DNA of 64,000 nucleotides, taken from NCBI GenBank assembly GCA_003576905.1, contig QEVG01000002.1:62001-126000 (forward strand), given 5' to 3'. The DNA comes from Planctomycetota bacterium. Lineage in GTDB: Bacteria > Planctomycetota > Phycisphaerae > UBA1845 > UTPLA1. Position 1 is the first letter of the stretch. Every line of letters begins with the position of its first letter. The translations under genes and the position numbers were made by a program. The notes beneath the pieces were generated by a model. That model had not been told where the DNA came from. It saw nothing but the letters and a program-made list of their open reading frames with translations, and did not search any database. Below, piece after piece: positions 32,596-42,020 of this stretch.

Positions 32596-33975
32596 ATGCC
32601 TGGCCTCCTCTTGAGCATCCTTCTCGCCGTGGGGCAGACCTCCGCCCCCGCCGCCGATCCCTTGTCCGCGCTGGCCGATCCGATCGTCGACACGGCCCAC
32701 GGCTTTTCCATCCGCCCGCCGAAGGATTGGCAGTATCTCCGCCAGCGCGTGCCCGAACGCCGCGGAAGCACGCTGGTACGCATGGTCAACCCGCTCGCTG
32801 CCGCCGAGCCGGAAGAGATCGTGCTCAAGCACTCGAACACGACGCGGGCCGTTTCGATGGGCGCGATGCTCCGGAGCATCGCCGCGAATATCGAGCTGGA
32901 GCACGGCGATGTGGCGTTTCTCTCCCAGCAGGAACAGCAGATTGCGGGCCGGCCGGGCGGAATCCTGGCCGCGACGTTTGCGCGCGAAGGACGCTCCCGC
33001 GTCCGGCTGCAAGCCATCATCGAGGCCCAGCCGCGCAATTACTTTGTCCTGATTTACGAGGGACCGGCCGCCCGCCGGGAGAACTGTGAACTGCTTTTTA
33101 ATCACGTGTTGAGTTCATTTGAACTGCAATCCGCTCTGGCGGATCGCGAAACCCTGGCAACGGCCGCGCACGAGGGACGCGCGCTGCTCGACGCGATAAC
33201 CCCGGATTCGCTGCGCAAGGCGATCATCCCGGAACAGGTCTTGAAGTTCGTCCTCGATGGCACGACCGTCGGCTACGTGGTCGTTCGGCAGGCCGAGATG
33301 AGGCGGGACGACCGGCCCGGAGTTTCCGTCTCGGAAAGCGGGTGGATTTTCGAGGCCGACGGCGGCGCACGGCGGCTGCGCTCCGAAATGTGGGTCAGCC
33401 TCGATGTCCGCGAGGAGAAGTGGGAAACGCACGTCACAAACCTTCTGCCCGCCTCGCGCGGACAGAAACCCCGGCTCGATAGCGCAATCGAGAAGGGGCA
33501 ACTGGCCGACGGCATATTGCTCACCAGTCAGAAGGATCCCGCCAATCAGCGCGTGACCGAGAACCCGCCTGTCAGGGTCGCGCGGAACTACCTCCCGCGG
33601 GCCCTGGTGCGCATGCTCCCGGCGCTCGTTTCCGCTCCGGAGAATCCGCGCACCCTCGCATTTGTCTCGTTCGATCACGCCCGTGCCGAGCTTGTTCCGC
33701 GGATTATCGATCTCAAGGGGGCCGCGCGGCTGCCCGGCGCGACGGCCGATGAAACCGCGTTCCGGCTGGATGATCGCGAGGGCACGGCGGCGCCGCCCTC
33801 GGCCCTGTACTTCGACAAGGATGGAAAAACCCTCCTCGTCGAAGCCCGGAGTCTCCGAATGCTTCCCGCGACCATCCGGGAAATGGAGAATTGCTTTGCC
33901 GCCCGAATTACCGAGGCCGGCGTAATAATGGATGACCTTGAGAGGAACGCGCGATTCGAGGGGCGGAATCCATAG
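32596..33975 (+). CDS. Unknown secreted protein, PsbP/DUF1795-like N-terminus
   Basis: A 459-residue protein with a signal peptide (LLLSILLAVGQTSAPAA). The part after it (HGFSIRPPKDWQYLRQRVPE, later YFVLIYEGPAARRENC) looks like a PsbP/DUF1795-type alpha-beta domain. The remaining 300 residues are beta-rich (VGYVVVRQAEMRRDD, WIFEADGGARRLRSEMWVSLD) and unassigned. No catalytic motif is seen. Cotranscribed with the preceding unknown gene, which shares the N-terminal flavour. Confidence 0.65.
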   Translation: MPGLLLSILLAVGQTSAPAADPLSALADPIVDTAHGFSIRPPKDWQYLRQRVPERRGSTLVRMVNPLAAAEPEEIVLKHSNTTRAVSMGAMLRSIAANIELEHGDVAFLSQQEQQIAGRPGGILAATFAREGRSRVRLQAIIEAQPRNYFVLIYEGPAARRENCELLFNHVLSSFELQSALADRETLATAAHEGRALLDAITPDSLRKAIIPEQVLKFVLDGTTVGYVVVRQAEMRRDDRPGVSVSESGWIFEADGGARRLRSEMWVSLDVREEKWETHVTNLLPASRGQKPRLDSAIEKGQLADGILLTSQKDPANQRVTENPPVRVARNYLPRALVRMLPALVSAPENPRTLAFVSFDHARAELVPRIIDLKGAARLPGATADETAFRLDDREGTAAPPSALYFDKDGKTLLVEARSLRMLPATIREMENCFAARITEAGVIMDDLERNARFEGRNP

Positions 33976-33998
33976 CCGCGCGGCGGCGGGAGCGATGC

Positions 33999-34250
33999 CT
34001 ATACGCAGATTACTTCGGTGATCTCCGGCAGGTGATCCTTCAGCGTCTGCTCGACGCCCAATTTGAGCGTGATGCCGGACGAAGGGCACCCGATGCACGC
34101 GCCGTGGAGCCGGACGCTCACGATGCCGCGGTCGTTCACATCCACCAGCTCGATGTCGCCGCCGTCGCCCTGAACGGCCGGACGCAGTTCGCTGATAATC
34201 CGCGCGACCTCGCGACGCAGGCGGTCATCGGATTTCGTTGCCGGGGTCAT
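33999..34250 (-). CDS. NifU C-terminal domain protein (Fe-S scaffold)
   Basis: An 83-residue protein consisting of a stand-alone NifU C-terminal (Nfu-like) domain: REVARIISELRPAVQGDGGDIELV, then VSVRLHGACIGCPSSGITLKLGVEQTLK with the CxxC pair that holds a bridging 4Fe-4S cluster, and a final DHLPEITEV. Such proteins deliver Fe-S clusters to target enzymes, for example radical SAM proteins such as MiaB encoded in this window. I start at the internal ATG at 34250; the upstream frame has no domain character. Confidence 0.88.
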   Translation of the reverse strand: MTPATKSDDRLRREVARIISELRPAVQGDGGDIELVDVNDRGIVSVRLHGACIGCPSSGITLKLGVEQTLKDHLPEITEVICV

Positions 34251-34361
34251 GTGGGGTCCCTTGGGGCCGACGTCCTGGAGCCGGCTTGCCTCATAAATCA
34301 TTATAGCAACAAGGGATGGGCCGTGGCAATCGAAATCGCAGCGGGCGTGCGGCCCCATGAG

Positions 34362-35333
34362 TCAGTCTGCCGGAGCCCTCCTCTGCGGCTGCTGTGCCAT
34401 AACTTTCGACGGCTGGGACGAGTCCGAAGTCGGCATGTCCCGGCAGAATGTCCGGGCGAGAAAGTCCACGATAACCGGCAGCGTGCGCTGGTTCTCGACG
34501 GAGTTAAAGTGCAAGCCCCACGCGTGCTTTCCGCCGGTGACTTTCACGAGCCGGGACTTAGTCCCGGCCTTCTCTAACGCCTCCGCCAGCGCGACCGCCT
34601 GCGCGTACACGACAACGCTGTCGCGGTCGCCGTGCAGGATCAGTACGGGCGGCGCGTCCGGGCGGACATGACTGATCGGCGACGCTTCGCGCCATGATTC
34701 CGGACTCTCCGGCGCCTTGCACCCCATGAACCCTTCGCAAAGGTAATGAACCACGGGGCCGCCACCTTCGCAGACGCTCACCAGGTCGGTCGGGCCGTAG
34801 ATGTCGATGACTGCCTGGATATCCGACCGCACGCCGGGATAGCTGTCGTCCTTGAAGACGGCGTGATCGCGCGCAAGACCGACCATGAGGGCCAGGTGCC
34901 CGCCGGCGGATTCGCCCCCCGCGGCGATCCGGTCCGGGTCAATGCCATATTCGCGGCACTTCGAACGCAGGAACTTGACCGAGGCGAGGGCGTCCTGCAC
35001 GGCGGCGGGGTAGGTCGCGCCATCCGTCCAGAGCCGGTAGCTGGCGGTTGCCGTGACATACCCCATCGAGGCAAGGAAACGGGCCAGGTCGCGCTCAAGA
35101 CTCCGGTCGCCATAGCCCCATCCTCCCCCGTGCCACAGCACGACGGCGGGGCGGCTCTGGCGGCCGTCCAGCGGAACAAATATGTCCATTTCCAACGGCT
35201 TCCCGCTGCGCCGCACGTATTCGACGGCCTCAAAGGATGCCGTCTCATAAAGCCCGACAGGCGGTCTGCTGCACGCGGAGAGGCTCAGAAGCAGGGCGAC
35301 GGTCGCAAAACACGGCCGGAAGCGGGATTTCAT
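34362..35333 (-). CDS. Alpha/beta-hydrolase esterase lipoprotein
   Basis: A 323-residue predicted lipoprotein (LLSLSAC, Cys near 20). The hydrolase core has oxyanion-hole motif WHGGGWGYGDRS, nucleophile elbow GGESAGGHLAL, acid LILHGDRDSVV and His in TGGKHAWGL, as in hormone-sensitive-lipase / feruloyl-esterase-like BD-FAE enzymes. These cleave short acyl or acetyl esters, often on polysaccharides. ATG 35333 precedes a normal signal peptide; the frame continues upstream without meaning. Confidence 0.88.
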   Translation of the reverse strand: MKSRFRPCFATVALLLSLSACSRPPVGLYETASFEAVEYVRRSGKPLEMDIFVPLDGRQSRPAVVLWHGGGWGYGDRSLERDLARFLASMGYVTATASYRLWTDGATYPAAVQDALASVKFLRSKCREYGIDPDRIAAGGESAGGHLALMVGLARDHAVFKDDSYPGVRSDIQAVIDIYGPTDLVSVCEGGGPVVHYLCEGFMGCKAPESPESWREASPISHVRPDAPPVLILHGDRDSVVVYAQAVALAEALEKAGTKSRLVKVTGGKHAWGLHFNSVENQRTLPVIVDFLARTFCRDMPTSDSSQPSKVMAQQPQRRAPAD

Positions 35334-35418
35334 GGGCGGGCAATCCAGGCGGGGAGAACACGGTGGCCGGGCGTTTGCATCGCCGGCTTGGCGGCCGCGT
35401 GACTTCCCCGGAGGGATT

Positions 35419-36339
35419 TCAAGCCCCGGCGGCGACTCTGGCAAGCCGCAGGCGACCGAGGCAGTAATTCGCAAGGACGCGCCATGGATTGGCAAGGGTC
35501 GGTTGAAGAAGGGCCGCGCGGAAAAGCTCCCGTCCGGCACGAGCCAGGTCGCCGTTTTCCAGATAGTGCATCCCCGTCCGCTCATGGACACGGGCCCGTG
35601 CCCGCCGCTTAAGTCGCCCCGTCGGGTCCGCCAGTTCGTAGAGCGCGGCATAGTCATGGATAAACCTGAGCATTTCGCGGCGATGTCGCTCCGGGTCTGT
35701 CCAGTGGGCCGGCCCCGGACGCTGCCGTACCAGCGGCTGTGGAAGAAGAAGCCCCTGAAACCGGGCGAGAAGCTCCACGGCGAGCCGCCGATCCTCCGCG
35801 GCCGCGCCCGCTGCGAATCCATTGACACTCAGAATCGCCTCGCGCCGGATAAGCAGCGAGGAACAGATCCCGGTAAAGATGTTCTTCACGAGGAGTTCCC
35901 GGCGCAGGATTGCCGGGTCGAGCGATCCCTCCCAGAAATGGTAGTGATAAGCCTGTTCTCGTTCGGACCAGGCCTGGACCGCCGTCACCGCGAAATCGGC
36001 CTCGGATTGCTGTTGAAGGGCGGCGAGCTGGGTCTCCAGCTTCGACGGTTCCCAGAGATCGTCCGCATCGAGGAAAGCCAGCCAGTCGCCATGCGACGAG
36101 GCAATGCCCGTGTTGCGCGCGGCGGACGCGCCCGCGTTCTCCTGGCGGAGGTATCGAACGGCCCTGCCAATCGTCCGGCAGACGTCCGCGGTTTGATCGC
36201 GGCTGCCGTCGTCGACGACAATGATTTCATCCGGCGGGACCGTCTGAGCCCGCACCGAGGCGATGGCATCGCCGAGGGTCGATGCCGAGTTGTAGCTCGG
36301 GATAATGACCGAAACGTATGCCCCGGAGAGGTCGCGCAT
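35419..36339 (-). CDS. Family 2 glycosyltransferase
   Basis: A 306-residue GT-A enzyme. SVIIPSYNSASTLGDAIASV opens the domain, followed by DEIIVVDDGSRD, NAGASAARNTGI and the DxD-type motif LAFLDADDLWEPSK. The C-terminal quarter is helical with a TPR-like stretch (LENGDLARAGRELFRAALLQP). It probably transfers a sugar from a nucleotide donor in surface polysaccharide synthesis. I start at the ATG (36339) just ahead of the first strand; earlier in-frame codons give a basic, unrelated extension. Confidence 0.88.
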   Translation of the reverse strand: MRDLSGAYVSVIIPSYNSASTLGDAIASVRAQTVPPDEIIVVDDGSRDQTADVCRTIGRAVRYLRQENAGASAARNTGIASSHGDWLAFLDADDLWEPSKLETQLAALQQQSEADFAVTAVQAWSEREQAYHYHFWEGSLDPAILRRELLVKNIFTGICSSLLIRREAILSVNGFAAGAAAEDRRLAVELLARFQGLLLPQPLVRQRPGPAHWTDPERHRREMLRFIHDYAALYELADPTGRLKRRARARVHERTGMHYLENGDLARAGRELFRAALLQPTLANPWRVLANYCLGRLRLARVAAGA

Positions 36340-36627
36340 ACAGATACATCGACGCGGCGAGGGGGCGGGTTCACTACGGCGTGATTTGCGCGAAAAAAGA
36401 GCGGCCTGCGCCCCAAAGATCCATCTTCGGAGCGGCAAGACCGCCGAAAAAACATCGGCGCGAATGCTCTTCCAGATGCAATCCTTGCGGGAACCCGACG
36501 CGTTCGCACGGCCGCGCCGCCTGAGCGAACGTCCGCACCCCTCCGTAGGCGTCGGTAAAGAGAAAAATGCTGCTGATGAGGGCGATCGACCGTTTGCGCT
36601 CCGAAGGCGTCAGCCGCGACCCGTGAA

Positions 36628-37606
36628 CCCGCCGTGTTGCCACCGGCGGGCCAATCCCTCATGGGCTTGCGATCTCGTTCAGAGTCCGATGCGGTCGATT
36701 GGTATCACGGATTGTGGTTTCGCGATCCCACTTCGCCGTTACCATTTGGCCCGGCCGGGTGGTCTTCCCAACCGACCGTCGCGTGCGGATGGGTTTAATA
36801 TCCGCCTGCGCACCTCTCGTCGAGTTTCGCCGCCCTCCAGGGCCTTTCCGGGTCGAGCTCAGCCGCATCCTCTCGGATCCGGCACCTTCCCTGCGCTTTT
36901 GTTCCCTTTGGCACATGCGGCCCGCGAGGTCCGGTTCACACGGGCTTTGCCTGCCCGCCACCTTCCGCCCTCAGGGTTTGGATACCCTCTCGACGGTTTG
37001 CTCCCTCGCGTGCCTTGCCCACCGTGTTTCAGGCCGGCAGCACCTGTGGGATTCTCCCCTCGGAGCCTTCTCCTCCAGACAGGTCGCTCCGGCGTTACCA
37101 CCGCAGCACGCCCCGCTTGCCGTTACACACGAGACCCTCATCGCCGCGCCGAAGCACGGCCAAGCCGAATCCCGCAGCCCGGTTGCCGGGTACTTCCTGC
37201 CAAGAGTCCCTCGCAAGAACGCGGGTGTTTAGCCTGCGTCTTGCCGGATGCTCCCTTGGGCTTTGCCCTCCCAGGGGTCTTGGGCGGCGACCTTGGCCGG
37301 GATTTCGCCCAGCCTCCTCCCACGCGCTTCTGAGTGATACCGGGTTGCCCCGAATCACCCGTCCGCGCCTCGGAGTCTCAATCAGCCGACGCTTAGGTCC
37401 GGCCCGGTGGGCCGGACACCCCTCTCAGGGTTTTCGCGCCTCAACGTCCCTGGCATTCAACCGCATCGCCGGCCCGGGCTATGTGTTCACCTTGCGGGTC
37501 GCTCCGCGGTGCCGCGAAGCCGCCGCCCGTTCCTTGGGCCGACCTGGGTTTACCGAGGTTGTCAGGGCCGCTGATCGGCGCCGATCAAGCGCCACTCATC
37601 AGTAGC
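36628..37606 (-). ncRNA. Candidate large structured non-coding RNA (about 1 kb), class unknown
   Basis: No reading frame here looks like protein: the frames give Arg/Pro/Ser-rich sequence with no domain. On the minus strand the region is dense in hairpins with A-rich, GNRA-like loops: CGGG-GCAA-CCCG (37341-37352) flanked by GTGAT/ATCAC; a GCAA hairpin with 9 bp and one bulge (36628-36650); C-UUCG-G (37144-37159); 9-bp GTCCGGCCC/GGGCCGGAC (37397-37417); CCCGG/CCGGG (37178-37190); GGGC/GCCC (37258-37268); CGGGC/GCCCG (36941-36957); AGGGT/ACCCT (36973-36988); and a 16-base palindrome near the 5' end (37572-37587). A promoter lies just upstream. Both ends are approximate. RNase P, tmRNA, SRP and group II intron signatures were not found. 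Confidence 0.6.
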
Positions 37607-37612
37607 AATTCG

Positions 37613-37640
37613 AACATACCCCATGATTCCCCTGCGTCAA
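37613..37640 (-). promoter_or_regulatory. Sigma70-type promoter of the candidate RNA
   Basis: On the minus strand TTGACG (37640-37635), a 16-base spacer and TATGTT (37618-37613). Transcription would start near 37606, exactly where the hairpin-rich region begins. It points away from rnpA, whose start lies 265 bases to the right. Confidence 0.5.
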
Positions 37641-37904
37641 CGAAAAACGGTCGAACGGCGAGATTCACAGGGGGGCTGCCCCGACTTACGGCAAGGGCGC
37701 GGCGCGCAAGTGCCGTTCTCCGGGAACCAAACTGCGCCGGCACGCGCCGCAAATTTTTCAAGCAATCTTCGCGGTTTTTTGTTCTTCACAGGCTGCGAGT
37801 CCCACGCCGTCGGCACATTTCGCATCTTTTCCACGAAAACTCACCGTAACTCACACCTTTTGCACATTTTCCTTTCCGCGGGTATTCATCCCTCGGAGCG
37901 ACCC

Positions 37905-38297
37905 GTGAGCAACACGAAGCAGACGCGATACAAGTTTCCTCGCACCTGCCGCCTGGCGGGCCGGCGCAACTTCGCACGCGTCTTCGCCGCGAAGTGCAGC
38001 GCGTCCAACCGGCTTCTGGTCATTTACGCCGCGGCGAATGACCTGCCGCACCCGCGTCTGGGGCTGTCCGTGGGCCGTCGGCTTGGCACCGCCGTTCAGC
38101 GCAATCGCATCAAGCGCCTGCTGCGCGAGGCCTTTCGGCTGGAGCTTCGCCGGCTGCCGGGAGGGTACGATTTGGTCTGCATTCCGCGGGGAGACGAGGG
38201 CGCCACTTTGGACGCCTTTCGCTCGGCGCTGGTGAATGTGTCGCAAAAAGCGATTACGCGTTACGAGGCATGGGCCCGCGCGCGAGAATCACCGTAA
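37905..38297 (+). CDS. rnpA: Ribonuclease P protein component
   Basis: A 130-residue basic protein that assists RNase P RNA in tRNA 5' processing. FPRTCRLAGRRNFARVFA at the start and the RNR signature in GRRLGTAVQRNRIKRLLREAFR are diagnostic. GTG 37905 is preceded by GGAG at proper distance; the frame extends upstream but without family similarity. I do not see rpmH (ribosomal protein L34), which usually precedes rnpA, in the 300 bases upstream, nor yidD/yidC downstream. So this rnpA is outside its usual context. Confidence 0.93.
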   Translation: MSNTKQTRYKFPRTCRLAGRRNFARVFAAKCSASNRLLVIYAAANDLPHPRLGLSVGRRLGTAVQRNRIKRLLREAFRLELRRLPGGYDLVCIPRGDEGATLDAFRSALVNVSQKAITRYEAWARARESP

Positions 38298-38353
38298 GCG
38301 CGAATGGGCCGCGTCGCCTGCATTGCAAACAGCGTGGGTGACGGGTCCGAAGA

Positions 38354-38851
38354 CTAGGGATTCGCCGGGACGCGAATCTCCGCCGGTCGCGGGGCCTGCC
38401 GGACCATCCCGCCGGGCGGGCCGGACGGTGACATACGGGAGACATCCGGCGAGACCGCGGGGGCCGGCGTGTGGGATTCAATCGACGGCATGGGCCGGCG
38501 CTGGGCGGCCTCGGCCGCGGCCTGCCCGACGATGACGTTTCCGACGAAGATGGCGCCGTCGTTGATCTCCAGCCGCGTGGTGCGCAGGTCGCCCTCGACT
38601 TTGGCCGTGGCAAGTAGGTGCAGCTTTTCGCTGACGATCAGGTTGCCCTTGCACTCGCCTTCGACCTTTACGTTTGAAGCCTCGACGTTGGCCGAGACTT
38701 TCGCGCCCTCGGCGACGTGGAGCGTCCCCTTCGACTTGATATGGCCGTCGAACGCACCCTCGATCCGCACTCCTTTTTCAAAGCTGAGTTCCCCCTTGAA
38801 TCGTGCGTCCGAACCTATGATGGTGGGAAACTCCCCGTTCATTTCGGCCAT
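38354..38851 (-). CDS. Bactofilin family protein
   Basis: A 165-residue protein with the bactofilin (DUF583) beta-helix: TIIGSDARFKGELSFEKGVRIEG, HIKSKGTLHVAEGAKVSANVE, VEGECKGNLIVSEKLHLLATA. It is followed by a Pro-rich disordered tail of about 45 residues. Bactofilins form filaments at the cytoplasmic membrane that organise cell shape and wall enzymes. ATG 38851 has CGGAGGT in front. It converges with rnpA. Confidence 0.9.
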   Translation of the reverse strand: MAEMNGEFPTIIGSDARFKGELSFEKGVRIEGAFDGHIKSKGTLHVAEGAKVSANVEASNVKVEGECKGNLIVSEKLHLLATAKVEGDLRTTRLEINDGAIFVGNVIVGQAAAEAAQRRPMPSIESHTPAPAVSPDVSRMSPSGPPGGMVRQAPRPAEIRVPANP

Positions 38852-39221
38852 ACCTCCGAGACCTCCTCGCGTGCGCCGCGACAGCGCGGCGGGTGATACT
38901 ATCGTCTGAACTTTCCGACCGACCTTGGCCGTGGACCCCCATCCGTGGAGAGGGGGCAGTATATCCGAGGCGGCCCGCAAAAACAAACGAGCGGTCGACG
39001 TGTCCTTACGTGCACCCTTGTAATATCGCCGCAACTTGCACAACGAAAATCCGCAGCCGGCCTTGCTCTACGTCGATATCCTGTGAATTGTTCGCCGGGG
39101 AAGCGCAGAAGCTGTGATTTTCCGTCCTCGACGTGAGAAAACCGGTGCATTCCCGCTTTCGCGGCGCGCCGTTCCGCCGCGGCTTGCGGTTCCGGTTCCC
39201 GGCGCGCCCCGGAGCAGCCCG
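38852..39221 (-). other. Intergenic region upstream of the bactofilin gene
   Basis: About 370 bases with no gene I can support. A possible minus-strand promoter is TTGTTT, 17-base spacer, TATACT (38986-38958): a good -10 and a poor -35. It would drive the bactofilin gene with a leader of about 100 bases. The rest, toward 39221, is GC-rich with small inverted repeats only. Confidence 0.35.
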
Positions 39222-39770
39222 TTAGCGGCCCCAGTTTTCGGGGGGCTCGCTCTGCTGCCACGACCGCTCCCGCGCGGGCGGGGCATTGGCGAACTCCGCG
39301 ACGTTGAGGTCGCAACGGGGAATGACCGCGATGCAGTACGGACTGGCCATTACCGTCGGCACACCCGGAGCGGGAGCCGTCACAACGGTCTCCACCCGGA
39401 GCACGCCGCCGTCACGCCAGACTCGGCGAATATCGATGGAGTATTGATCTGAAATAACTCGGCCCAGAGTGACTACAAGAAGCATTTCGCTGCTGAAGTC
39501 GACGGGGACATCCGCCAGCGGAATCTGGGCCAGCGTCGCCAGATCTCGTACCGCTACTTGCATCGCCCGCGTTTCATGAGAATGGGTGCCGTGCATCTTG
39601 TGAAGAATCGGTACGTCCTCTCCCGGTGCCGGCAGAATACCCGTCGTTTGTCGTGGTTTGTGACAGCCCGCGAGGCCGCAAAGAACAATCATAACCAGCC
39701 GGCCTCGAACATCGCGGGTTCGGAGACAGGTCCGCGCGACTCCGCCGGAAGAATAGACGCCTGATAACAT
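39222..39770 (-). CDS. PrcB-like C-terminal domain protein, probable lipoprotein
   Basis: A 182-residue protein. The hydrophobic start LVMIVLCGLAGCHK looks like a lipoprotein signal with the Cys after LAG, though the stretch ahead of it is unusually long. The C-terminal half (DFSSEMLLVVTLGRVISDQYSIDIRRVWRDGG ... SPYCIAVIPR) fits the PrcB_C domain, which was first seen in a protease-complex subunit of spirochaetes. The true start is uncertain; ATG 39770 is used because no better one is found. Function unknown. Confidence 0.65.
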   Translation of the reverse strand: MLSGVYSSGGVARTCLRTRDVRGRLVMIVLCGLAGCHKPRQTTGILPAPGEDVPILHKMHGTHSHETRAMQVAVRDLATLAQIPLADVPVDFSSEMLLVVTLGRVISDQYSIDIRRVWRDGGVLRVETVVTAPAPGVPTVMASPYCIAVIPRCDLNVAEFANAPPARERSWQQSEPPENWGR

Positions 39771-39882
39771 GCAGTTCGTTCTCTGGAGCTTGGGTTGCAT
39801 ATTCAGATATTACAAGCATTTAGTGCCGTCCGGGCAACGGCCGGCGTTGACCTTTCCCGTCGCCGCAGGTTACCATCGAGGG

Positions 39883-40485
39883 GTGAAGTCCTGCGCTGTT
39901 TTCATTCTGTTTACCGGGCTGGTCTGGGCACGACAGGGGTTGCCCCCGTCGGGCGGACTGCCCGTTCGCGAGGGGGGCCGGTTTGCAATGAACGGCGGGG
40001 TGGCCGGGTCGCAGAGCGGACCAAGCCAGGGTCGGCGGAGCCGTGCCTCGGGAGACGGTCGCCTGCGCGCCCGCGACTTGCCCGACGCGGCCCAGCAGGT
40101 CAGGGCAGCGCTGGCCGCCGGAGACATTGAGAAGGCGACACGGCTGGTCGATCGTGCCCGAGGCGTGTTTGAGTCCACGCGGCCCTCGATCAAGTCCGAG
40201 GACATCGCCGACTGGCGGATCCTCGACGCGAAGATTCAGTTGCAACTGAAGCGCTATGAGGCCGCGGGCCTCGCCGCCATGAAAGTGGTGATTCTCCAGC
40301 CGGACAGCCCGCGTGTCGCGGAGGGATTGTGCCTGACCGGCGAAGCCTACGAGGGCCTGGGCCGGCCGGAGAAGGCGGCGAGTCTCTTCCGCGAATGCAT
40401 GAACACAAAGCGGGTGGATCCGGAAGTGCGTCGCCGCGCCGAGGCGGGTCTGGCGCGCCTCAAGGGGAAGGTGCCTTCAAAATGA
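39883..40485 (+). CDS. Secreted TPR-containing protein
   Basis: A 200-residue protein with an N-terminal hydrophobic export segment (CAVFILFTGLVWARQG), a low-complexity linker and a C-terminal helical region with TPR-like repeats (AAQQVRAALAAGDIEKATRLVDRA; VAEGLCLTGEAYEGLGRPEKAASLFREC). It likely serves as a protein-binding module. Its stop overlaps the miaB start as ATGA. GTG 39883 is the best start because the signal segment follows at once. Confidence 0.7.
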   Translation: MKSCAVFILFTGLVWARQGLPPSGGLPVREGGRFAMNGGVAGSQSGPSQGRRSRASGDGRLRARDLPDAAQQVRAALAAGDIEKATRLVDRARGVFESTRPSIKSEDIADWRILDAKIQLQLKRYEAAGLAAMKVVILQPDSPRVAEGLCLTGEAYEGLGRPEKAASLFRECMNTKRVDPEVRRRAEAGLARLKGKVPSK

Positions 40486-42020
40486 CACTCCCCCGCACGG
40501 TCTATCTCGAAACAATGGGATGCCAGATGAACGCCCTCGACAGCGAGCTGGTCATGGGCGAGTTGCTGTCCCGCGGATTCCGCCCGACCGACGACCTGGA
40601 TGCCGCCGAGCTGGTCATCCTGAACACCTGCAGCGTCCGCCAGCACGCCGAGGACAAGGTCTATTCCCGTCTCGGCCACCTCAAAAGCGTCCGGGGACGA
40701 CGCCCGGACCAGGTCGTCGCCGTCATCGGCTGCATGGCCGAGCGCGATGGCGACGGACTCCTGGCGAAGATGCCGCACGTCGACATTCTCTGCGGGCCCG
40801 GCGAGCTGCATCGCCTACCGGGTCTCCTCGACGATGTCCGCGATCGGCGCGGCCCGGCGGTCGCCCTTTCCGGCCGCCTGCGCGCCCACAGCACGCCCGT
40901 TCGTCATGCCGGAGCGCACGAAGACCTCGAGGCGCTGGACAGTGGACGGGTTTTCAACCTCTCGTCCCACGTGGACACGCCGAAAATCTTCGGCCGTCAC
41001 CAGGCCTACGTCCGCATCACCCGGGGCTGCAACAAGTACTGCTCCTTCTGTGTCGTGCCTTACACGCGCGGGCCCGAAGCGCATCGGCCGCCGGAACAGA
41101 TCGTGGCGGAAGTCCGCCGGCTGGCCCAGGCGGGTGTCATGGAAGTGACTCTGCTCGGGCAGACCGTTAACCATTATCATTACCGGGAGCCGGGCCGCCC
41201 GTCGACGAGCTTTGCGGAACTCTTGCGCCGCGTTCACGACGAAGTGCCCGAACTGCCCCGGCTCCGCTTCGTGACGAGTTACCCGCGCGATTTCACCGAC
41301 GAAGCCCTCGCCGTCATGGCGGAATCGCCGCGCATCTGCCGCTACCTGCATATCCCGGCACAGAGCGGGAGCAACGCCGTCCTGAAGCGGATGAACCGCG
41401 GATACACCGTCGAGGAATACCGCCGCCTGCTCGACCGCGCCCGGGCCATGATGCCGGACATCTGTATCGCGGGCGACATGATCGTCGGCTTCTGCGGAGA
41501 AACGGAGGCGGACTTCCGGCAGAGCCTCGATCTGCTCCGATATGCCCGGTACAAGAACTGTTTCATCTTCAAATACTCGCCCCGCCCCGGCACGCACGCC
41601 GACGAGCGCCTCTCCGACGATGTGCCCGAGGAGGTCAAGCGCCGCCGCAACAACGACATGCTGGCCGTGCAGGCCGAGATCAACCTGGCCGGCCATCGCG
41701 CGATGATGGATAGCGTCATCGACGTGCTCGTCGAGGGCAGGAGCAAGCGCGCTCTTAAGATGCAGGAATCAGAGCAGTCGCGCGGTGAGGAAGTCGATCC
41801 GACGGTCCGCGGGCCGGGCCAGCTGGTCGGCCGCACGTCGGGCGATCAGATCGTCGTGTTCGACGGCGATTCCGAACTGATTGGTCGATTCGCCCGCGTC
41901 CGGATCGTCGCTGCGACGCCTTACACGCTGCACGGCACGCTGGAGGGCCCGGCGTCCGAGCCGGTGTCGGCCGCGCTGGCTCGTCAGCGCGGCATTCCGC
42001 TCGCGGTACTCGGCGCATAA
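40482..42020 (+). CDS. miaB: tRNA-2-methylthio-N6-dimethylallyladenosine synthase
   Basis: A 512-residue radical SAM methylthiotransferase. The N-terminal UPF0004 domain has three cluster Cys (ETMGCQMN, LNTCSV, IGCMAE). The radical SAM motif CNKYCSFC lies in ITRGCNKYCSFCVVPYTRG. A TRAM domain closes the protein (LVGRTSGDQIVVFDGD). It modifies A37 of tRNAs reading UNN codons. GCNKYCSFCVVPYTRGPE and the QMN spacing match MiaB rather than RimO or MtaB. Confidence 0.93.
   Translation: MTLPRTVYLETMGCQMNALDSELVMGELLSRGFRPTDDLDAAELVILNTCSVRQHAEDKVYSRLGHLKSVRGRRPDQVVAVIGCMAERDGDGLLAKMPHVDILCGPGELHRLPGLLDDVRDRRGPAVALSGRLRAHSTPVRHAGAHEDLEALDSGRVFNLSSHVDTPKIFGRHQAYVRITRGCNKYCSFCVVPYTRGPEAHRPPEQIVAEVRRLAQAGVMEVTLLGQTVNHYHYREPGRPSTSFAELLRRVHDEVPELPRLRFVTSYPRDFTDEALAVMAESPRICRYLHIPAQSGSNAVLKRMNRGYTVEEYRRLLDRARAMMPDICIAGDMIVGFCGETEADFRQSLDLLRYARYKNCFIFKYSPRPGTHADERLSDDVPEEVKRRRNNDMLAVQAEINLAGHRAMMDSVIDVLVEGRSKRALKMQESEQSRGEEVDPTVRGPGQLVGRTSGDQIVVFDGDSELIGRFARVRIVAATPYTLHGTLEGPASEPVSAALARQRGIPLAVLGA

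Follow-up and report, generated by a model that had tools for sequence, protein, structure and literature searches.

To our knowledge, few bacterial RNAs outside the ribosome are of the size and complexity considered here, and those that have been studied are catalysts or RNA-only assemblies. The closest described systems, the OLE, ROOL and GOLLD RNAs, assemble as RNA-only homo-oligomers (PMC12286853). The RNA described here resembles these three in being large, ornate and stand-alone, with extensive covarying stems, A-rich loops and a poorly known function. It also departs from them in several respects. GOLLD and ROOL are linked to phages or tRNA islands and OLE is an RNA of Gram-positive extremophiles, whereas this RNA is a mostly inherited chromosomal gene of Planctomycetota; OLE measures ~600 nt and many GOLLD RNAs exceed 800 nt, against 1,044 nt here; and its predicted fold contains five modules of one topology, unlike any of the three, to which its sequence is unrelated.

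Comparison with known RNA classes

All coordinates refer to the window, that is, the whole 64,000-nt stretch of DNA analysed. The original prediction had proposed a structured RNA of unknown class rivalling GOLLD, ROOL and OLE in size. The length is indeed comparable, and the proposed Rfam check left the class unknown: Rfam 15 gave no family at the gathering threshold in the whole window and, at 16 homologous loci, no match apart from an unrelated one that lies outside the RNA, which rules out a known Rfam class. The GOLLD, ROOL and OLE models gave no match at E-values up to 5 in 33000-41000, and a tRNA search of the window found none; the setting is not the phage or tRNA-island one of GOLLD and ROOL. 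A phage or plasmid RNA was also rejected, as searches of viral contigs, phages and plasmids returned no match. Such an RNA was not reported in the papers searched, few of them from subscription journals.

Because rnpA is adjacent, RNase P RNA was suspected. Both RNAs are structured and stand-alone, and this one adjoins rnpA in this genus, but it is three times as long, no RNase P model matches at the locus, and the RF00010 match of the host genome lies elsewhere (G000:C57:5421-5883, L031, 236 bits). With 463 bases against a model of 367 positions, that match probably carries insertions. Similarly, tmRNA was rejected: the RF00023 match is elsewhere (G000:C35:108224-108578, 174.5 bits) and ARAGORN finds none in the window. 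Group II introns are of similar size and also have several domains around a centre. However, this RNA has no domain V and no reverse transcriptase, the Rfam models for group II introns (domains V-VI) match neither the window nor the 16 homologs, and the gene has a promoter of its own and is single-copy in the host.

Extent of the gene and its non-coding nature

The gene and its ends comprise the following predicted features:

37613-37640, minus strand: promoter, with −35 TTGACG (37640-37635), a 16-nt spacer and −10 TATGTT (37618-37613); from the sequence and 43 homologs
36563-37606, minus strand: RNA gene, 1,044 nt; from the fold z-score, full-length homologs, covariation, and the conserved promoter and T-run (43 homologs)
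37595-37606, minus strand: 5′ strand of P1, the molecule-closing helix, pairing with 36579-36569; from covarying pairs
36563-36579, minus strand: 3′ strand of P1 (36579-36569), one A and the U-run 36567-36563; from covariation and the T-run in homologs

The region had originally been placed at 36628-37606. Its 5′ edge stands, with the 5′ end of the RNA near 37606, but the 3′ end lies ~65 nt further, at the end of the U-run, because the two ends of the molecule, 36579-36569 (3′) and 37606-37595 (5′), pair with each other. The TTGACG-16-TATGTT promoter is found exactly as predicted, ending 7 bases upstream of the RNA 5′ end, and most of the 43 homologs carry a comparable −35/−10 pair, with the −35 box at about −34 to −36 and mostly 16-17 nt spacing (mean score 8.4, against 7.2, sd 0.86, in shuffles). 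Judged by its sequence, this promoter is of the sigma-70 type. In the 43 homologs examined a T-run directly follows the 3′ strand of P1, and the length of the RNA body ranges from 1,016 to 1,119 nt; P1 and the U-run probably act as terminator. From the conserved promoter and ends, we infer that the gene is transcribed. Past the expected transcript end, most homologs of the order also have a conserved TGCGC after the T-run, a motif that is not obvious in the window itself (below 36563).

The claim that this ~1 kb holds no protein gene was borne out, and a protein gene or pseudogene can be ruled out: the open reading frames of the region matched no Pfam family, mismatches to three close homologs showed no three-base periodicity by codon position (65/79/73, 69/87/80 and 97/104/95), and indels relative to close homologs are mostly not multiples of three. 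Opposite the RNA, the plus strand contains open frames of up to 342 aa (36305-37333, 36699-37232 and 37015-37605), none of which matched a family; automatic annotation would probably label them hypothetical proteins.

A fold conserved across the phylum

The minus strand had been proposed to be the RNA, and folding agrees: it folds at −475.6 kcal/mol against −433.0 kcal/mol for shuffled sequence (z −6.7), whereas the plus strand reaches a z of only −2.0. RNAalifold predicted 304 pairs from 43 sequences, and among the 50 strongest covarying column pairs of this alignment 78% were complementary, against 9% in the background. By home-made nulls (not R-scape), 14 pairs exceeded the maximum of eight tree-based nulls, all 14 of them in or adjacent to predicted pairs, and a comparison with background column pairs from that alignment gave p < 1e-3 for 112 of the 304 pairs (0.3 expected), with 75 passing Bonferroni correction. 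A separately made alignment of 29 sequences gave the same picture, the structure derivation and the pair counts having used overlapping sequence sets: in 186 of 294 pairs both partners change, standard pairs make up 89% of the 8,358 pair cells, none of 500 shuffles reached any of these values, and pairing falls to 37-45% when partners are slid by 1-3 columns. In the core with distant homologs from across the phylum, compensatory changes are seen in 33 of 36 pairs. We therefore regard the large structured non-coding RNA as real, and its gene and modular fold as computationally established.

The hairpins named in the original prediction are present, with UUCG at 37153-37150, GCAA near 36640-36637 and the hairpin at 37417-37396. 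The GCAA at 37345-37348 exists as well, but it sits in a variable hairpin outside the conserved core. That prediction had not included the true 3′ end, the architecture of repeated modules or the occurrence across the phylum.

Repeated modules

From the 5′ end the predicted order is P1, P2 (37587-37582 with 36592-36587, inside P1), domain A and modules B, C, D and E, with E′ in the inner arm of E:

37436-37581, minus strand: domain A, the first arm; covarying helices, not counted among the repeated modules
37266-37430, minus strand: module B; helices, two 3x3 loops, matched by the D and E′ models in other species
37055-37261, minus strand: module C; helices, two 3x3 loops, partial D-model matches
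36903-37051, minus strand: module D, the most conserved core and the basis of covariance models R1 and R2; covariation
36596-36896, minus strand: module E (outer part), whose inner arm carries E′; helices and a topology like that of the other modules
36674-36824, minus strand: module E′, nested in E and the basis of model R3; D-model match, two 3x3 loops

B, C, D, E and E′ share one plan, which begins with 4 bp, a 3x3 loop, 4-5 bp, a hairpin (H1) and a long stem (S2), beyond which an inner arm follows in all five with 4-5 bp, a 3x3 loop, 4-5 bp and a second hairpin (H2). The model contains nine clean 3x3 loops, all at equivalent places of the modules, and a tenth, at the base of E, with a tentative central pair. 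In their base loops, C, D, E and E′ agree on a consensus of ANG facing GAA, or nearly so, and B diverges more. Module D has 98% of its cells paired, and 17 of its 40 pairs changed on both sides.

The modules also recognize one another in covariance searches. With E-values that are rough by the tool's own statement, R2, trained only on D, gave 16 secondary matches below 0.01 at 12 loci, all on the RNA strand, all inside the RNA and all at B, C or E′ (the best being B in L120, 5.6e-10, and E′ in L125, 1.1e-9); in the window the D model matches E′ at 36839-36658 (1.7e-5); and R3, trained only on E′, reciprocally finds D (best 4.1e-8) and B (best 1.3e-7). These models indicate that B, D and E′ are homologous. 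The D-model matches to C are partial only, and C and the outer E would belong to the set mainly by topology.

Kissing loops, pseudoknots and loop-loop covariation were sought and nothing convincing was found. Two positions of the same H2 loop of module D, 36951 and 36949, two bases apart, do covary; this signal could reflect a loop that kisses itself between molecules or an alignment artefact.

Could the modules support an active site? A ribozyme or other catalytic RNA, in which conserved unpaired blocks would form the site and the modules the supporting architecture, would fit the long near-invariant unpaired stretches (for example GAAACAAA and the AACCAA loops of module D) and a size comparable with group II introns and RNase P. 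We consider it quite unlikely, as the Rfam ribozymes gave only a chance hairpin match (E 3) and the conserved positions are distributed over similar modules and not gathered at one site. A multivalent regulator or decoy, whose modules would all bind one and the same RNA-binding protein or small RNA, thereby titrating it, as CsrB does with CsrA, is unlikely too. Repeated elements in one RNA are the point of likeness, and ten equivalent 3x3 loops, a stand-alone gene with its own promoter and the accessory distribution described below are what such a decoy might show; but CsrB-type decoys carry short GGA hairpins, while the modules here are large two-junction structures, whose size and constraint go far beyond what a protein-binding hairpin requires, and conservation also extends to sequence outside the loops. 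Nor was a partner found for it: Ro60 alone was checked, and the Y RNA/Ro60 pairing was rejected on the absence of a TROVE-domain protein from the host genome (3 of 101 relatives have one).

Distribution, inheritance and genomic context

By blastn, the RNA sequence was found in 45 of 101 relatives, aligned over ~1.1 kb. In the host genome it is single-copy, and a genome repeat family was rejected on this ground. R1 detected it in 40 of 397 genomes from the class, those 40 all belonging to the same order, and in 30 of 392 genomes sampled across the phylum; R2, trained on a wider set, raised the latter to 42 of 392, most below 1e-10. A profile of the full RNA based on sequence alone likewise picks up these distant loci, the best of them (L125) over profile positions 49-1067, nearly the full length. 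The expectation of homologs with covarying stems was thus confirmed phylum-wide: several families outside the host's class, across Planctomycetota, carry homologs, mostly one per genome. Two matches to the RNA core each occur in G449, G548, G575, G587 and G487. An exact-pattern scan of 84,980 species, tuned to close relatives and the sole test applied to phyla other than Planctomycetota, returned 22 contigs, each with Planctomycetota, planctomycete or Phycisphaerae/Phycisphaerales in its title.

Many near-complete relatives are without the gene, and when 28 genomes were rechecked at higher sensitivity there was one clear match (G022, already in the blastn set) and one marginal (E 0.014). Since close relatives lack it, the RNA appears to be accessory and not essential. 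In a tree of 43 RNAs the family labels require 9 changes and shuffled labels at least 16, so inheritance is mostly vertical, with losses and perhaps a few transfers. Two RNAs of family f1, L011 (G008) and L013 (G004), are placed inside the clade of family f4, which suggests rare horizontal transfer.

The patchy presence, the few misplaced RNAs and the two copies in some genomes could be taken as marks of a mobile-element remnant or core, for example a group II intron that has degenerated, or a GOLLD- or ROOL-like RNA of phage origin. This origin is largely contradicted and seems highly improbable, given the lack of any group II intron or other Rfam match and of any phage, plasmid or viral match, the single copy in the host, the gene's own promoter and ends, and the mostly family-wise inheritance.

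The immediate neighbours in the window, a divergent rnpA (37905-38297) and a same-strand family 2 glycosyltransferase, are of a type kept only within families. No neighbour gene is recurrent across the phylum. A PIN-PhoH (PhoH2-like) gene lies directly upstream of the RNA, in the same orientation, in 6 of 20 relatives (L098, L099, L102, L105, L106 and L109); this looks like local synteny and was not accepted as a conserved operon partner, of which none was found, though a functional link could exist. In view of the lack of a conserved neighbour, the RNA is most likely a stand-alone, trans-acting gene.

Discussion

What might such an RNA do? We lean, with somewhat less than even confidence, towards an architectural RNA, that is, a modular, pseudo-symmetric scaffold or self-assembling particle encoded by an independent, trans-acting gene. 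A structural RNA of 1,044 nt would be transcribed from its own sigma-70-type promoter, end in a U-run after the helix that joins its ends, and fold as arms around a central junction. Its modules, each with a purine-rich 3x3 loop between short helices, a hairpin, a long stem and an inner arm bearing a second 3x3 loop and hairpin, would together make a pseudo-symmetric body, which may either display repeated binding sites for a protein or pack against itself or other copies through conserved A-rich loops to give a stable particle. That it works like OLE, ROOL or GOLLD is a guess from its size, independence, ornate structure and repeated modules.

In favour of this architectural reading are the covariation along the whole length and across the phylum, the five-fold topology, the cross-matching of modules, the gene's own promoter and ends, and the lack of a conserved neighbour; against it are the absence of TROVE (Ro60) from the host genome and of convincing loop-loop covariation for a quaternary contact. 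As the fold is conserved across distant lineages and built from a repeated module, the RNA is probably the core of an RNA machine or particle of a new kind. More speculatively, internal duplication of a ~150-190-nt module may have produced, in uncultured Planctomycetota, a five-module pseudo-symmetric RNA that forms a defined particle, either alone or together with protein; we regard this fuller scenario as possible but doubtful.

What is new here is an RNA previously uncatalogued and absent from Rfam 15, with a phylum-wide occurrence and a length beyond OLE and the 800-nt mark of GOLLD. Its conserved ends and module borders define a construct that could be taken directly into in vitro transcription and cryo-EM, and the repeated modules would illustrate how domain duplication can build up a large RNA.
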